From Deltaproteobacteria bacterium (GTDB lineage: Bacteria > UBA10199 > SBBF01), in contig JACQOY010000105.1 in the NCBI GenBank assembly GCA_016207765.1, positions 1 through 11,743 on the forward strand: a stretch of 11,743 bases of DNA, written 5' to 3'. Numbering within the stretch: position 1 is the stretch's first letter; every line of letters starts with the position of its first letter. This document shows positions 76-10,036 of this stretch, piece by piece. The notes beneath the pieces are model-generated. The model did no database searches and was not told where the DNA came from. It saw only the letters and a list, made by a program, of their open reading frames with translations. Both the position numbers and the translations under genes were made by a program.

Positions 76-104
76 TTGCATCACCCCCCAAATTTGATCA
101 TAAT
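76..104 (+). promoter_or_regulatory. candidate sigma70-like promoter of the peptide cassette
   Basis: TTGCAT (76-81) and CATAAT (99-104) are separated by 17 bases. The -10 box matches the TATAAT consensus at five of six positions; the -35 box is weak. Transcription would begin about 111, only a few bases before the ATG at 117, giving a nearly leaderless mRNA. That fits the absence of a Shine-Dalgarno sequence before the first gene. Judged by eye only. Confidence 0.35.
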
Positions 105-116
105 ACACAAATTATC

Positions 117-1100
117 ATGTCCGTTTTTGAAGAAATCCGTTGTTTTATCCAAAAAAAAATTTCCAACCCTGTTTCACTTTCCCTCTTGCTCGAACAGCTC
201 GACAAAACCCGACGAATGATCGCCGACGGTTACTGGATCCCCGCCTTCGATCTGCCGGAACAAATCGGATTGAATCTCAATCAACCCCAACGAGAATCAC
301 GTCTCCTGACAAGAATTTGCGCCTTTATCTATTTGGGTGCGGATTTGCTGGACGATCTGCACGATGGAGAACTTCAGCTCCCGCAAAATATTTCAACCGC
401 GGAGGTCACCCTCCTTTCCGCAACCCTTTTGACCGCCTTTCCCTCGATGACCCTTTCCGAATTGCACGTAAATGCGGAAACAAAAGTTAAAATGCAGGAA
501 ACCATCGCCCAATCCCTTCTGAAAATGAGCCTGGGGCAACAGCAGGATATTTCCACCGTGGCGCGGGAGGATATTTCTCTGGATGAGGTTAAACAATCAG
601 TCATGGCCAAAAGCGGGGAAGAATTGGCCCTGTTTTGTTTGTTGGCGGCCCAATACTCCGAATTACCGTTGCCGCAACAAAAATATCATGAAAACTTCGG
701 CCGCTTGTTGGGAACAGCCCTGCAAATGGCGTCGGACTACCACGATCTCATGTGGGCCCCTGTAAGTTGCGATTTAAAACGGGGCACCCGATCGCTCCCG
801 ATCGCCTTCTGTCTGGAAAAATTAAGGGCCAAGCCGCGACGGGAATTCATGAAACTTCTCGAAGAAGCCGCAGACAACGCAGAGAAGCTTCAACTATTCA
901 GGCATTTTCTGGCCGATTCGGGGAGTCTCGATTATCTGGCCTTGTTGGTGGAGGATTGTTGTCTTGAGTCGCTCAAGATGCTGGAATTGTTGAATCTTGG
1001 AAAAGAAACGAAAATGCGCCTTAAAACCAGGATTGAATCGGTTTCCCTGCTTGCAACGCGAAAAGACCGGGCCGAAAGGCCCATGCTGTTTGGCATGTAG
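117..1100 (+). CDS. ComQ-like isoprenyl-diphosphate-synthase-fold enzyme
   Basis: All-alpha trans-isoprenyl diphosphate synthase-like protein of 327 residues. The first metal site is DDLHD (79-83) after LGADLL. The Lys-Ser-Gly segment near 165 sits where family members carry a Lys-Thr pair. A diverged second Asp motif, SDYHD (206-210), is followed by DLKRGTRSLP (219-228), the lid segment typical of polyprenyl synthases. The N-terminal GGKR/RP isopentenyl-binding signature is not visible, which suggests transfer to another acceptor, as in the peptide prenyltransferase ComQ. The next gene encodes a ComX-like peptide, supporting that role. The reading frame extends back to ATG 21, but that codon lies in a hairpin and the region 33-116 looks non-coding, so ATG 117 is preferred. 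Oddly, the C-terminus (LFGM) is identical to that of the downstream peptide. The fold is well supported. A terpene synthase or a short-chain prenyl diphosphate synthase remains possible. Confidence 0.8.
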   Translation: MSVFEEIRCFIQKKISNPVSLSLLLEQLDKTRRMIADGYWIPAFDLPEQIGLNLNQPQRESRLLTRICAFIYLGADLLDDLHDGELQLPQNISTAEVTLLSATLLTAFPSMTLSELHVNAETKVKMQETIAQSLLKMSLGQQQDISTVAREDISLDEVKQSVMAKSGEELALFCLLAAQYSELPLPQQKYHENFGRLLGTALQMASDYHDLMWAPVSCDLKRGTRSLPIAFCLEKLRAKPRREFMKLLEEAADNAEKLQLFRHFLADSGSLDYLALLVEDCCLESLKMLELLNLGKETKMRLKTRIESVSLLATRKDRAERPMLFGM

Positions 1101-1104
1101 TCAA

Positions 1105-1111
1105 AAGGAGG
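1105..1111 (+). promoter_or_regulatory. strong Shine-Dalgarno of the small peptide
   Basis: AAGGAGG lies four bases before ATG 1116. This near-perfect ribosome-binding site is much better than those of most genes in the window. It is the main evidence that the 64-codon frame is translated, probably abundantly. Confidence 0.8.
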
Positions 1112-1115
1112 CACC

Positions 1116-1310
1116 ATGAAAACATTGTCACGATTGATCGATCTCTTTGAAAAAGACCCCCGGTTTCTCAAAGAGTGGAGAACAGACCCTGTTTTGGCGG
1201 TCAGGAACAGGAAAATACCCGAAGCGGGGAACAGGCAAATAACACGAATCATTGATGGACTCCGAAAAGAAACTCATTTGAAAAAGCAGATGAAATTGTT
1301 CGGCATGTAA
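1116..1310 (+). CDS. ComX-like precursor peptide (64 aa)
   Basis: Small basic, soluble peptide without a signal sequence, starting 15 bases after the enzyme gene. Residues 7-19 read LI-x2-F-x3-P-x2-LK, the same residues at the same spacing that I remember in the leader of Bacillus subtilis ComX. The middle (DPVLA, then a predicted helix 38-50) is leader-like. The C-terminus is QMKLFGM: an aromatic Phe62 stands third from the end before Gly, where ComX has Trp-Gly-Asp with its prenylated Trp. The only Trp is residue 21, inside the leader-like part. Inferred role: substrate of the adjacent prenyltransferase-like enzyme, possibly a secreted signal or other modified peptide. No protease, exporter or histidine kinase is seen nearby. 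Helical N-terminal regions rich in DPxxL also occur in other RiPP leaders, so family membership is not proven. Confidence 0.7.
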   Translation: MKTLSRLIDLFEKDPRFLKEWRTDPVLAVRNRKIPEAGNRQITRIIDGLRKETHLKKQMKLFGM

Positions 1311-1322
1311 TACAACCCTTAC

Positions 1323-1328
1323 AGGAGG
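1323..1328 (+). promoter_or_regulatory. strong Shine-Dalgarno of the lipoprotein gene
   Basis: AGGAGG is five bases before ATG 1334 and fixes that start, 23 bases after the peptide stop. The two short gaps and strong sites make 117-2242 look like one transcription unit. Confidence 0.75.
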
Positions 1329-1333
1329 TCGAA

Positions 1334-2242
1334 ATGTTTGTTCATTCAATCTGGCATCGGTGGTGTTTGGCTCTTTTCTTTGGCTTTCTCATCCATTGTT
1401 CGGGCTCCTCGGGAGGAACCGACAGCGAAGACGAGGAAACGGAAACAGCCTCGGCGGATCTGGCCGTTTTTTTGGAATGGTCCGGCTCTGCGTGGGATTC
1501 TCTGGTTGCCATTGCGGAAGATGACGAAACATTGACTTTTCCGGTGGAATGCCCCGGTGGCGGCACAATGGATTCTGAGGGGGACGAGGTAACCATTAAT
1601 GACTGCGTGGTCACTTCTGAAACGGGAACAACTTATTTGGGACGGGGCGCCTATACGCTCACCGAATCGGGATCACTGGTTACCCATGAATGGGATCAGG
1701 ACCTGATCGTGGACGACGATGCAACCTTCTCGAGTACCGGTTCAGTCAGCTTTAACACGCTCGAAGACCTCATCGCCTTCGATTTTTCGGCCACTTTTTC
1801 AAGCGGCGTTTTTCGCCTGACCGGCACCGTAATCGATAACGGCAACGGCACCAGTGATTTGACTTTGTCGGTCCAGCAGGATGGCGAAGCGTGGCTTGAT
1901 TGTTCCCTCGACAACCAGGCTCTTGACTCCCTGACCGACAGCCTCATTAACGCGGCCTGCGCGGACAATGAGGACGCCGCCTGCGATACGCTGGAATGTG
2001 GAAATGATTTTCAATGCCAGCTTTTTGCGGATGACGATCCGGATGATGAGTTCGAAACGGGCAATGTGGAATGCAGTGAGGGGTGCTGTGCAATAATCGA
2101 GGAGGTTGCCGACTGCCCGGAATCGAGTTCATGCACCGATGATTTTTCGTGTCAGCTTTTTGCCGACGACGACCCCGATGATGAATTCGAAACGGACAAT
2201 GTGGAATGCGGGGACGATGGCTGTTGCGCCCTGATCGAATAA
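1334..2242 (+). CDS. acidic Cys-rich secreted lipoprotein with C-terminal repeats
   Basis: Protein of 302 residues that I do not recognise. Residues 1-21 form a signal peptide with a hydrophobic core, followed by LIHC-SGSSGG. Cys22 is a likely lipidated cysteine, although His at -1 is an unusual lipobox residue. A very acidic linker (24-40) is typical of surface lipoproteins. Residues about 45-205 look beta-rich, with alternating polar and hydrophobic residues and paired Cys. The last about 80 residues hold two copies of a Cys-rich unit (DFxCQLFADDDPDDEFET, then NVEC and CC). The Asp-rich runs could bind calcium and the Cys could form disulfides outside the inner membrane. It is third in the cassette with the ComQ-like enzyme and ComX-like peptide, so it may be a surface partner, receptor or immunity factor for the peptide. 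That role is inferred only from position. Confidence 0.75.
   Translation: MFVHSIWHRWCLALFFGFLIHCSGSSGGTDSEDEETETASADLAVFLEWSGSAWDSLVAIAEDDETLTFPVECPGGGTMDSEGDEVTINDCVVTSETGTTYLGRGAYTLTESGSLVTHEWDQDLIVDDDATFSSTGSVSFNTLEDLIAFDFSATFSSGVFRLTGTVIDNGNGTSDLTLSVQQDGEAWLDCSLDNQALDSLTDSLINAACADNEDAACDTLECGNDFQCQLFADDDPDDEFETGNVECSEGCCAIIEEVADCPESSSCTDDFSCQLFADDDPDDEFETDNVECGDDGCCALIE
2006..2101 (+). repeat. Cys/Asp-rich repeat unit, copy 1 (32 codons)
   Basis: Residues 225-256 of the lipoprotein. The unit begins DFQCQLFADDDPDDEFET and ends in NVEC-SEGCC-AIIE. Protein identity with copy 2 is much higher than DNA identity: many third positions differ (for example gcggatgacgat versus gccgacgacgac). This indicates an old duplication kept by selection on the protein. 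Confidence 0.85.
2141..2239 (+). repeat. Cys/Asp-rich repeat unit, copy 2 (33 codons)
   Basis: Residues 270-302, the very C-terminus of the lipoprotein. It repeats copy 1 with one extra residue (GDDGCC for SEGCC) and two changes near the start and middle (Gln to Ser, Gly to Asp). The four Cys of each unit (one early, one in NVEC, then CC) are all conserved. Confidence 0.85.
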
Positions 2243-2301: not shown

Positions 2302-3129
2302 ATGCCCATTCACATTGCCCACAGTCCCGACTCCGATGATGCCTTCATGTTTTACGCCTTGGCGGCGGGAAAGATCGACCCGGAAGGATTGGAGTTTGTC
2401 CATGTCTTGAAAGACATCGAAACATTGAACCGCGAGGCGCTTAAAGGGACCTATGAAATCTCCGCCGTTTCCATCCACGCCTATGCCTTTCTTTCCGATA
2501 AATATGCCCTGCTGGGAAGCGGGGCCAGCATGGGGGAAAAATACGGGCCGATGGTTGTCGCCAAAGAAAATTTTTCCCTCTCCGACCTGAAGAAAAAGAA
2601 AATAGCCGTCCCCGGAACCTTGACCACCGCTTTTCTCGCCCTCCGCCTCGTCGAACCCGATTTTCAGTATGTGGTTGTCCCGTTCGACCGGATTCTCGAT
2701 TTTGTCCGGGAGGGAAAAGCCGATGCCGGTCTGATCATTCACGAAGGGCAGTTGCAATACCAAAGCCTCGGGTTCAACCTAATTGTCGATCTCGGCGCCT
2801 GGTGGCACGAGCAAACCGGCCTCCCTCTTCCTTTGGGGGGAAATGCCGTCCGCCGCGATTTGGGAAACCAGATGATGAAAAAACTGGCCCGTCTGCAAAA
2901 AACGAGCATCGCCTACGGACTTTCGCACCGCGAAGATGCCCTCGCCCATGCCATGCAGTACGCCCGCGGGTTGTCAAAAGAGACCGCCGACCGGTTTGTC
3001 GGGATGTACGTCAACCAGCGAACGCTTGATTATGGAGAGGACGGCAAAGAGGCGGTCCTCAAAATCCTCGATTTGGCTCATCGGAAAAAAATTATCCCGC
3101 ATCCCGTCCCTGTCGAATTCATCGATTGA
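2302..3129 (+). CDS. mqnD: MqnD, 1,4-dihydroxy-6-naphthoate synthase
   Basis: Cytoplasmic enzyme of the futalosine route to menaquinone, which forms 1,4-dihydroxy-6-naphthoate from cyclic dehypoxanthine futalosine. The 275-residue length is normal. The N-terminus carries IAHSPDSDDAFMFYAL (5-20), the family signature. GLIIHEGQLQY (143-153) holds the conserved His147, which corresponds to the catalytic His described for this family. DLGAWWHEQTGLPLPLGGN (163-181) is also diagnostic. The fold is periplasmic-binding-protein-like. ATG 2302 is preceded by AAGGG (2288-2292). No mqnA, mqnB or mqnC is in the window, so the pathway genes are dispersed. The TolC-like gene follows 52 bases later but has no evident functional link. 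Confidence 0.93.
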   Translation: MPIHIAHSPDSDDAFMFYALAAGKIDPEGLEFVHVLKDIETLNREALKGTYEISAVSIHAYAFLSDKYALLGSGASMGEKYGPMVVAKENFSLSDLKKKKIAVPGTLTTAFLALRLVEPDFQYVVVPFDRILDFVREGKADAGLIIHEGQLQYQSLGFNLIVDLGAWWHEQTGLPLPLGGNAVRRDLGNQMMKKLARLQKTSIAYGLSHREDALAHAMQYARGLSKETADRFVGMYVNQRTLDYGEDGKEAVLKILDLAHRKKIIPHPVPVEFID

Positions 3130-9162: not shown

Positions 9163-9184
9163 AATACTTTACTTTGGAGAAGGG

Positions 9185-9268
9185 TGCCGGGAGAGGGAAT
9201 CGAACCCTCACACCCTTGCGGGCTTCGGATTTTGAGTCCGACGCGTCTGCCAGTTCCGCCATCCCGGC
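9185..9268 (-). tRNA. tRNA-Leu (anticodon CAA)
   Basis: Read on the minus strand, the sequence starts GCCGGGA (rc of 9262-9268) and ends TCCCGGC plus discriminator A (rc of 9185-9192). The acceptor stem is fully paired. The anticodon arm CGGA-CTCAAAA-TCCG places CAA at 9232-9234, reading UUG. A long variable arm (GCCCGCAAGGGT region) and the T arm GAGGGTTCGATTCCCTC are present, as expected for a class II tRNA. The genome does not encode CCA: ACCC follows, so CCA must be added by nucleotidyltransferase. Confidence 0.95.
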
Positions 9269-9317: not shown

Positions 9318-9354
9318 TTGTTTTTTCATCCGCACTGTGGCTTCATCTATTTAT

Positions 9355-9428
9355 GGGGGCTCGCGTCGCCCCCTCCACCCCGCGTTGCGGGGATGGAGCC
9401 TCCCCCTCACCGCCGCTTTGCGGCTGGT
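9355..9428. repeat. GC-rich cluster of three hairpins
   Basis: Three stems lie back to back: GGGGGC/GCCCCC (9355-9360 with 9368-9373), TCCACCCCGC with GCGGGGATGGA (9374-9383 with 9387-9397, one bulged base), and GCCGC/GCGGC (9412-9416 with 9420-9424). CCTCCCCC (9399-9406) could also pair with the GGGGGC arm, giving a larger alternative fold. The block ends six bases before the next gene. It resembles a REP-like intergenic element or an mRNA leader. It is not followed by a T-tract, so it is not an ordinary terminator. Confidence 0.5.
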
Positions 9429-9433
9429 TATTT

Positions 9434-10036
9434 ATGCTTTTAAAAATCGCCATTCCCCTTTATTCCCTTGTTTTGTTTCTGGCCGTGGCGGCCAAAAAGC
9501 GGATGGTCCAAAAAAAAATCGGGCGAAACCCTGTTTTGATTCAGCGGTCCAAATCGGCCGCCGAAACCTTTCTGCAACGGCTTGCCTTCTTTTTTTTCCC
9601 GCTCTGGTTGGGAGGAGCCAACCTCTTTGCCTTTCGTCCCGACCTCACCGATAAAATCCAGCACCTGCATTGGGCCCCCTCGGTGCGTTTGACAGGTCTT
9701 GTCCTCCTCATTGCCTCATGGTTTCTGTTCGTCACCGCCTTAGTCCATATGCGCGAGGCATGGCGCTTCGGCATCGATTGGGAGGGATCGATCGAACTGG
9801 TCGACCGGGGAATCTATCGTCATATTCGCCACCCCATATATACCTCGTTCAAACTGGCGCTGATCGCCACTCTGATTGTCTTCCCTAATTTCTATTTTCT
9901 CTGGATCAATACCGCCGCCTTCATCGGCTTTTCGATGATTGCGCTGATGGAAGAGGATTTTTTGAAGGGGCGTTTGGGGAAAAAATACGAGGATTACATG
10001 AAAAAAACCGGGCGGTTTTTTCCGAAAATTTTGTAA
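9434..10036 (+). CDS. ICMT/PEMT-family membrane methyltransferase
   Basis: Integral membrane S-adenosylmethionine-dependent methyltransferase of 200 residues in the isoprenylcysteine carboxyl methyltransferase family. Hydrophobic segments lie at about 4-20, 50-66, 86-104, and 138-172 (a hairpin of two). The signature GIYRHIRHPIY (126-136) is followed by MEEDFL (172-177) and KYEDYMKKTGRFFPK (184-198), the usual SAM- and acceptor-site block. The frame is open back to 9353 through the hairpin cluster, but the Arg/Pro-rich translation there is not protein-like, so ATG 9434 is chosen. It has no Shine-Dalgarno. Bacterial members methylate varied lipid or small acceptors, and the substrate here is unknown. 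A link to the prenyl-peptide cassette 8 kb upstream is possible but not shown. Confidence 0.8.
   Translation: MLLKIAIPLYSLVLFLAVAAKKRMVQKKIGRNPVLIQRSKSAAETFLQRLAFFFFPLWLGGANLFAFRPDLTDKIQHLHWAPSVRLTGLVLLIASWFLFVTALVHMREAWRFGIDWEGSIELVDRGIYRHIRHPIYTSFKLALIATLIVFPNFYFLWINTAAFIGFSMIALMEEDFLKGRLGKKYEDYMKKTGRFFPKIL

Follow-up and report, generated by a model that had tools for sequence, protein, structure and literature searches.

A divergent isoprenyl-diphosphate-synthase-fold enzyme tied to a small partner protein outside Firmicutes: a proposed family of peptide prenyltransferases

Peptide prenyltransferases that resemble trans-isoprenyl diphosphate synthases (trans-IDS) are already known, and one of them, PalQ, acts on a precursor of the NHLP type. 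Three have been named, ComQ, the P domain of ChrPC and PalQ (PMC13290415). In the ComQ-ComX system of Bacillus the enzyme gene is followed by that of a small peptide, and the enzyme keeps its first Asp-rich motif (FARM) and, in a pseudo form of the second (SARM), only the second Asp, the first residue being Asn or Gly (PMC5331326). In Paenibacillus alvei, PalQ, an enzyme of the isoprenoid synthase superfamily, is paired with the small precursor PalX, which has an NHLP-type body and ends in a prenylated Trp after the core DNVRRFFW, beside a histidine kinase; this pair is the precedent for an NHLP precursor served by a prenyltransferase of isoprenoid-synthase fold (PMC10853753). The P domain of ChrPC lies outside the ComQ family and is accompanied by a cyclase domain (via PMC13290415), and MppC, a peptide prenyltransferase acting on Trp82 of a lanthipeptide, needs a structured NHLP/Nif11-like leader, that of the Nif11-like precursor MppE (PMC12715784). 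Here we compare with these systems a three-gene cassette on an 11,743-nt stretch of DNA (the window) from a Deltaproteobacteria bacterium, in which the gene of a divergent trans-IDS-fold enzyme is followed by those of a 64-residue small protein and a predicted lipoprotein. With slightly better than even confidence, we propose that the enzyme belongs to a new family of trans-IDS-like peptide prenyltransferases, ComQ- or PalQ-like in action; identity with ComQ is not claimed, and prenyl transfer is what we infer.

The window is a whole contig (JACQOY010000105.1), so that only 116 bases are visible 5′ of the enzyme gene; the genome is 84% complete and 1.89 Mb in size. The cassette reads as follows, pLDDT being the predicted local distance difference test score of the structure model.

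117..1100, + strand: trans-isoprenyl-diphosphate-synthase-fold enzyme, 327 amino acids, divergent, proposed peptide prenyltransferase
351..365, + strand: FARM of the enzyme, DDLHD, residues 79-83
732..746, + strand: altered SARM of the enzyme, SDYHD, residues 206-210 (canonical form DDxxD)
1086..1100, + strand: C-terminal LFGM of the enzyme and stop, within a disordered extension, residues 315-327 (pLDDT <50)
1105..1111, + strand: Shine-Dalgarno sequence AAGGAGG of the small gene, seen in the sequence
1116..1310, + strand: small protein, 64 amino acids, resembling a diverged precursor of NHLP/Os1348 type; helices and the tail LFGM
1296..1310, + strand: C-terminal LFGM of the small protein and stop, with comparable tails in relatives
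1323..1328, + strand: Shine-Dalgarno sequence AGGAGG of the lipoprotein gene, seen in the sequence
1334..2242, + strand: predicted acidic lipoprotein, 302 amino acids, the type II partner; Cys22 and two C-terminal Cys-rich repeats

A sequence-only reading of this DNA had described an enzyme of polyprenyl-synthase fold with DDLHD, SDYHD and DLKRGTRSLP, a 64-codon gene 15 bases on with a strong Shine-Dalgarno sequence and an acidic lipoprotein gene 23 bases after that, and all of these are present (the small-gene ATG is at 1116). The cassette start that it placed at 76 is better put at 117, where an ATG agrees with the start positions of its nearest relatives (alignment A1), in a frame that is open from base 3 and has its stop codon at 1098-1100. 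Among the relatives we distinguish type I loci, which have a cNMP-PqqD-M50-like protein as partner, from type II loci, which have the lipoprotein and include the window.

The main result is that the enzyme is genetically tied to a dedicated small protein outside Firmicutes, which the distribution of the two genes supports. Among 46 genomes of the window's class, the enzyme was found at 275 bits or more in 11 (next score 62 bits), and the small protein (profile A2) in the same 11 and in none of the other 35. Profile A2 was trained on ten of the 11; in the one left out, G006, it found the small protein at 8.3e-4, encoded behind the lipoprotein gene and ending in LFGM, so that G006 was rejected as an enzyme locus without a small protein. 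A set of 385 genomes that includes the class added two enzyme genomes, G176 (330 bits) and G172 (184 bits). A wider small-protein profile scored at least 53 bits in exactly the 13 enzyme genomes of this set and at most 34 bits in 14 others, in a search that scored up to 15 candidates per genome and could miss weak relatives. G176, which was in no training set, was likewise rejected as a genome lacking the small protein, as it has two copies on another contig, unlinked to the enzyme and beside a gene for a cNMP-PqqD-M50-like protein. A further sample of 191 genomes yielded the enzyme of G424 (165 bits), and a scan of named genomes yielded two Elusimicrobia metagenome-assembled genomes (MAGs), bringing the family to 16 enzyme loci; a search of 149 genomes around G172 gave no further enzyme match above 74 bits, and tblastn of the enzyme against plasmids gave no match. 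The six named relatives are entered in GenBank as four 'Deltaproteobacteria' and two 'Elusimicrobia' MAGs, with 'groundwater' given for at least three, in agreement with the earlier placing of the cassette outside Firmicutes. A survey of homologues for a short frame, which the sequence-only reading had suggested, shows a small protein adjoining the enzyme or within about 1 kb of it in 15 of the 16 loci, G176 having it on the other contig; the small neighbour in G424 is a weak match only (23.8 bits with profile A2; 35.8 bits with NF038399, cut-off 40). Small proteins occur in 2-4 copies with differing tails in four of the 16 genomes, in tandem as three and four copies at the two Elusimicrobia loci and as four in G019. 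Between the bodies of tandem copies, the ratio of nonsynonymous to synonymous substitution rates (dN/dS) is 0.06-0.29 in six of seven pairs and 0.69 in one, no type II pair being among them.

Pfam PF00348 (polyprenyl_synt) matches the enzyme at 51 bits (cut-off 27), its AlphaFold model from an alignment of seven rows has a pLDDT of 90.4, and structure comparison gives the trans-IDS fold, with canonical synthases as the best matches in both sequence and fold. In a tree, a branch with support 100/99 separates the family from the canonical enzymes, with long branches flagged at G172, G424 and G027. We compared motifs in an alignment of the 16 family members, two wrong-frame rows of L003 being set aside, with 17 canonical enzymes, all of which have DDxxD and RR as well as GKRxRP or a near form. 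The FARM is DDxxD in 15 family members, including the window's, and DNxxD in G424. The first SARM residue is Ser in 14 and Thr in two, the second SARM Asp is kept in all 16, and the last Asp is kept in 14, again including the window's, with Glu in G006 and G172. The motifs that bind isopentenyl diphosphate (IPP) and diphosphate, GKRxRP, RRG and GKxxGxD, were found at the aligned columns in none of the 16 (G038 is gapped at the third), and the features of a canonical chain-elongating trans-IDS, which are GKRxRP, RRG after the FARM and a second DDxxD, are absent at those columns from all 16. Thus the family shares fold and DDxxD with canonical polyprenyl and geranylgeranyl diphosphate synthases but lacks their three IPP/diphosphate-binding motifs and forms a separate clade. 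A Gln upstream of the SARM is present in 16 of 16 family members, in which the first SARM Asp is lost, but likewise in canonical enzymes, and was dropped as a mark of Trp recognition. In G038 the alignment has a gap directly after the second motif; as a side observation, this enzyme gene (L083 / G038:C140, 467-1336, minus strand) lacks the stretch after that motif, which points to a decayed copy or an assembly fault.

Other assignments of the enzyme were considered. The family 2 encapsulin cargo polyprenyl transferase model NF041169 gives 51.9 bits against a cut-off of 450. G099 (89 bits) was dropped as a possible family member, having GKRLRP and housekeeping-like neighbours. A menaquinone-chain synthase beside mqnD was rejected as the leading interpretation, given that the window's genome has two further, canonical PF00348 genes (250 and 186 bits) and that the window enzyme lacks the IPP-site motifs; prenyl diphosphates could come from the products of these two genes, which lie elsewhere in the genome.

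The small protein of the window is diverged. It is itself a row of profile A2, against which it scores 7.0e-18. When 15 small proteins were scanned with the NCBIfam model NF038399 (Os1348 family NHLP clan, cut-off 40), eight passed, all from outside type II; L007, L013 and L084 fell below the cut-off, and the window's, L005, L014 and L021 gave no match (the scan of 15 left out L012 and further tandem copies). By profiles A2 and A5, being a row of both, the window's protein is a diverged relative of those that pass. These matches support the assignment of many relatives' small proteins to the NHLP/Os1348 clan of precursors of ribosomally synthesised and post-translationally modified peptides (RiPPs). 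Against the PDB, profile A2 has the Os1348 structure 6lk7 as its second row (E 0.0046), with a designed protein ranking higher. A single-sequence AlphaFold2 model of the window's small protein is a helical bundle (pLDDT 78; predicted TM-score 0.53), and in a Foldseek search of the PDB its rows 1-14 are all SonA, a RiPP precursor, followed by borosin domains and, at row 47, Os1348, with no row at E 0.001 or below; this predicted likeness in fold is weakly consistent with a RiPP-precursor-like protein. SonA belongs to the split borosin SonM-SonA, which is alike in that SonA is the nearest fold (a weak match, E 0.15 or more) and differs in that the modifying enzyme SonM is a methyltransferase. 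Os1348 itself, from Pseudomonas sp. Os17, gives its name to the model passed by the eight relatives; genes of acetyltransferase, HExxH and SagB-like type accompany it in its cluster, and the word 'prenyl' is absent from the main text of the paper (PMC7726476).

Two Trp positions and the C-terminal tails were compared across the small proteins. Of the 23 enzyme-associated ones in alignment A5, 17 have W13 and 16 have W51 (Os1348 has Thr at the position where most have W51), whereas weak NHLP-like matches from 14 genomes without the enzyme have W13 in one of 15 and W51 in none of 15 (11 of 15 aligned at column 51); this comparison is weakened by the common ancestry of the enzyme-associated set. 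For type II, an argument from conserved Trp was discarded, as both positions are mostly lost there. Trp occurs within about five residues of the C-terminus in only one of 22 small proteins, the third copy of G019 (tail WLA). Tandem copies share 59-91% of their bodies and differ in the last 1-3 residues after a Lys, with the tail sets IP, Y, WLA, GM; IP, M, FFS; and GA, VA, LFV, AFG, the split point being the last Lys as chosen by us, which L009 does not fit. Tails of type II small proteins are LFGM, FFGM or LLGM in five of six and RGM in G038. In the window and in G006 the enzyme bears a similar ending: the window enzyme ends in RPMLFGM and its small protein in QMKLFGM, and the G006 enzyme ends in QPKLFGA and its small protein in CPQLFGM. 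The full LFGM-type tail is not shared by the other 14 family enzymes, and the window enzyme is the only frame ending in GM among 236 long frames of the neighbourhood set. In its own genome (at the completeness given above) LFGM with a stop codon occurs only at the enzyme and small genes, a third match to the pattern ending in TGG. Elsewhere the pattern is not exclusive to the cassette, with two further cases with a stop in G032 and some in G001, G002, G006 and G038; a control with the reversed pattern had no match in the window's genome and at most one per strand in the others.

The partner genes divide the family. A cNMP-PqqD-M50-like protein is encoded in seven of 17 neighbourhoods (L022, L072, L076, L077, L078, L079, L082) and in G176. 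Its cNMP-binding part is clear and its PqqD-like and M50-like parts are weaker; HExxH is present in seven of the eight, with HDLGH in L078. The daptide intramembrane metalloprotease model NF041824 (cut-off 300) gives 78-144 bits in four type I neighbours scanned, one of them cut at the end, suggesting by sequence a relative and not a member of that family. Type II loci have the lipoprotein. Its profile, trained on five of the six type II loci, reaches at least 85 bits in six of the 46 class genomes, always beside the enzyme, with partial matches of about 30-43 bits in G018, G023, G015 and again G011. The lipoprotein is predicted from a hydrophobic start and a Cys, Cys22, that is invariant in five aligned relatives (alignment A4), the His before the Cys being atypical; at about 1980-2236 its gene encodes two Cys-rich repeats of the type C-x-DF-x-CQ-x-FADD. 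Because a tree branch (91/98) sets type II apart, as do 88% of 200 bootstrap trees, a share under the support mark of the tool, a single uptake of the lipoprotein is probable. Neither partner type is present in the visible DNA of L025 and G424. Where the earlier suggestion put a lipoprotein in the place of the ComP/ComA pair, the partner is a lipoprotein in the window's clade (six loci) and a cNMP-PqqD-M50-like protein in type I loci. That no such pair is in view was confirmed, with no histidine kinase or response regulator among 13 window proteins scanned.

Several further observations concern these neighbours. G018, G023 and G011 encode further proteins in which weak profile matches suggest Cys-rich repeats of this kind. 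Beside three type I loci (L076, L078, L082) lie genes for a LolA-like protein, two MacB/FtsX-like permeases, an ABC ATPase and the unassigned protein F7 (only L078 being scanned with Pfam), which could export a product to the outer membrane. Histidine-kinase and NtrC-like genes are near two type I loci (L078, L082), behind a gene read as folC (again only L078 being scanned with Pfam). In G312, a genome without the enzyme, a 1075-residue protein with a PqqD-M50-like region (HEMSH; L134:7227-10454) is encoded about 1.6 kb from a weak NHLP-like match, which may be a related system that uses a different modifying enzyme.

Taken together, these data suggest how the cassette might work. The enzyme would descend from trans-isoprenyl diphosphate synthases and have lost its IPP-binding residues, and its DDxxD would bind metal and ionise an allylic diphosphate, a role of this motif that is established for the superfamily. 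The prenyl group would go to the small partner encoded beside the enzyme. This transfer is suggested by the co-occurrence and the RiPP-like nature of the partner and by the missing IPP site, with ComQ and PalQ as precedents (PMC5331326; PMC10853753). In the small protein, a helical body of NHLP/Os1348 type would dock on the enzyme and be followed by a C-terminal end. In type I the acceptor would most likely be the conserved Trp51 (or Trp13), and the cNMP-PqqD-M50-like membrane metalloprotease would mature the product; in type II the lipoprotein may receive, or work together with, either the lipidated peptide or the LFGM-type tail of that peptide. The acceptor in the window's type is the weakest step, with no clear residue to be seen in the sequence, because the only Trp sits in the leader-like part. 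For the window's clade one may speculate, though we think it improbable, that the enzyme carries a copy of its substrate's tail and modifies a site other than Trp both in cis and in trans, by analogy with borosin methyltransferases, the product going to the surface lipoprotein. Fused borosins such as OphMA offer a parallel for an enzyme bearing a copy of the peptide tail.

A number of findings weigh against this interpretation. All characterised trans-IDS-like prenyltransferases are reported to be Trp-directed (PMC13290415), and W21, in the leader-like part, is the only Trp of the window's 64-residue small protein; W51 is absent from five of six type II small proteins, which mostly lack W13 as well. 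In 17 of 18 small proteins from loci other than type II and G424, the last Lys is followed by 1-4 residues, which would make a very short core. The window's small protein has no Pfam or NCBIfam match, and the SonA entries that it matches, weakly (E 0.15-1.4), all represent a single protein. The enzyme's sequence has its best match among canonical synthases, at 64 bits, ahead of the Trp farnesyltransferase Ord1 with about 30 bits. Of the seven type I neighbours scanned, PqqD exceeds the Pfam cut-off in one (L022) and M50 in two (L076, L077), and no cNMP-PqqD-M50-like gene was seen at the six type II loci, the search covering the loci and not whole genomes.

The same observations can be set against other explanations. 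Heteromeric prenyl synthases have small subunits, and the enzyme might make a free isoprenoid, either a prenyl diphosphate of short chain length or, through class I cyclisation, a terpene, with the small protein as a regulatory or structural subunit. The canonical best matches in sequence and fold, the kept FARM and a partner that is a helical mini-protein would fit this, but GKRxRP, RRG and GKxxGxD are found in 0 of 16 members (with the gap in G038), many partners fall in a RiPP precursor clan, four of 16 genomes have the partner in 2-4 copies with differing tails, and a RiPP-type metalloprotease-like protein adjoins the partners in eight loci; we regard it as unlikely. It is also conceivable, but doubtful, that the cassette modifies a peptide while the fold performs other chemistry or serves as a catalytically reduced, leader-binding scaffold. 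The conservation of DDxxD in 15 of 16 members and of the second SARM Asp in 16 of 16 argues for Mg-diphosphate chemistry and against this, whereas the loss of three diphosphate-binding motifs and the lack of a conserved acceptor residue in type II small proteins speak for it.

A true ComQ-ComX pheromone system that had spread to Gram-negative bacteria would explain the identical gene order, enzyme then small peptide, as well as the kept FARM and the changed first SARM residue. The ComX family (Pfam PF05952), however, matches neither the window's small protein nor those of eight relatives (0 of nine scanned), the window's has no Trp near its C-terminus, and histidine kinases and response regulators number 0 of 13 in the scan above, with no comP/comA in the window; we consider this highly improbable. 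The ComQ/ComX-like cassette of the sequence-only reading thus survives in part: the SARM change is ComQ-like and a small peptide is tied to the enzyme, but the small proteins are not ComX. In the SARM, the second Asp is kept as in ComQ, whereas the first residue is Ser or Thr here and Asn or Gly there, and the pseudo-SARM with only the second Asp is not seen in the 14 of 16 members, the window's included, that keep the last Asp also. That the 64-codon frame is a chance reading frame is next to impossible and already refuted by the co-occurrence in the 46- and 385-genome sets: its sequence matches no family, but it has a strong Shine-Dalgarno sequence, relatives in all 11 enzyme-bearing genomes of the class, and low dN/dS in most related tandem copies.

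Compared with PalX, the proposed peptide prenyltransferase family differs in the tails of its small proteins (GM, FGM, IP, LFV and others) and in its partners, the cNMP-PqqD-M50-like protein or the lipoprotein. The comparison with ComQ, PalQ and ChrPC is with their published descriptions, and the family may overlap with that of ChrPC. Among the best-ranked literature matches, which covered few subscription papers, no description of this enzyme-small protein combination was found. If the interpretation is right, a separate family would stand beside ComQ, the ChrPC P domain and PalQ, present in two or more named groups of Gram-negative candidate lineages and having precursors of its own, one metalloprotease type and one lipoprotein type. 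It would also offer a direct test of the conversion of an isoprenoid synthase into a peptide-modifying enzyme, because one clade holds small proteins with and without the conserved Trp.

The rest of the window adds minor observations. Directly 3′ of the cassette lies an MqnD-like gene (2302-3129, + strand; PF02621, 247 bits), and because of it menaquinone synthesis in the organism probably follows the futalosine route. A gene of the isoprenylcysteine carboxyl methyltransferase/phospholipid methyltransferase family (9353-10036, + strand; ICMT 32 bits, PEMT 31 bits) lies about 8 kb from the enzyme gene; it was rejected as part of the system, being in no neighbour family shared among the 17 neighbourhoods compared. 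A tRNA-Leu (caa) is encoded at 9183-9268 on the minus strand.

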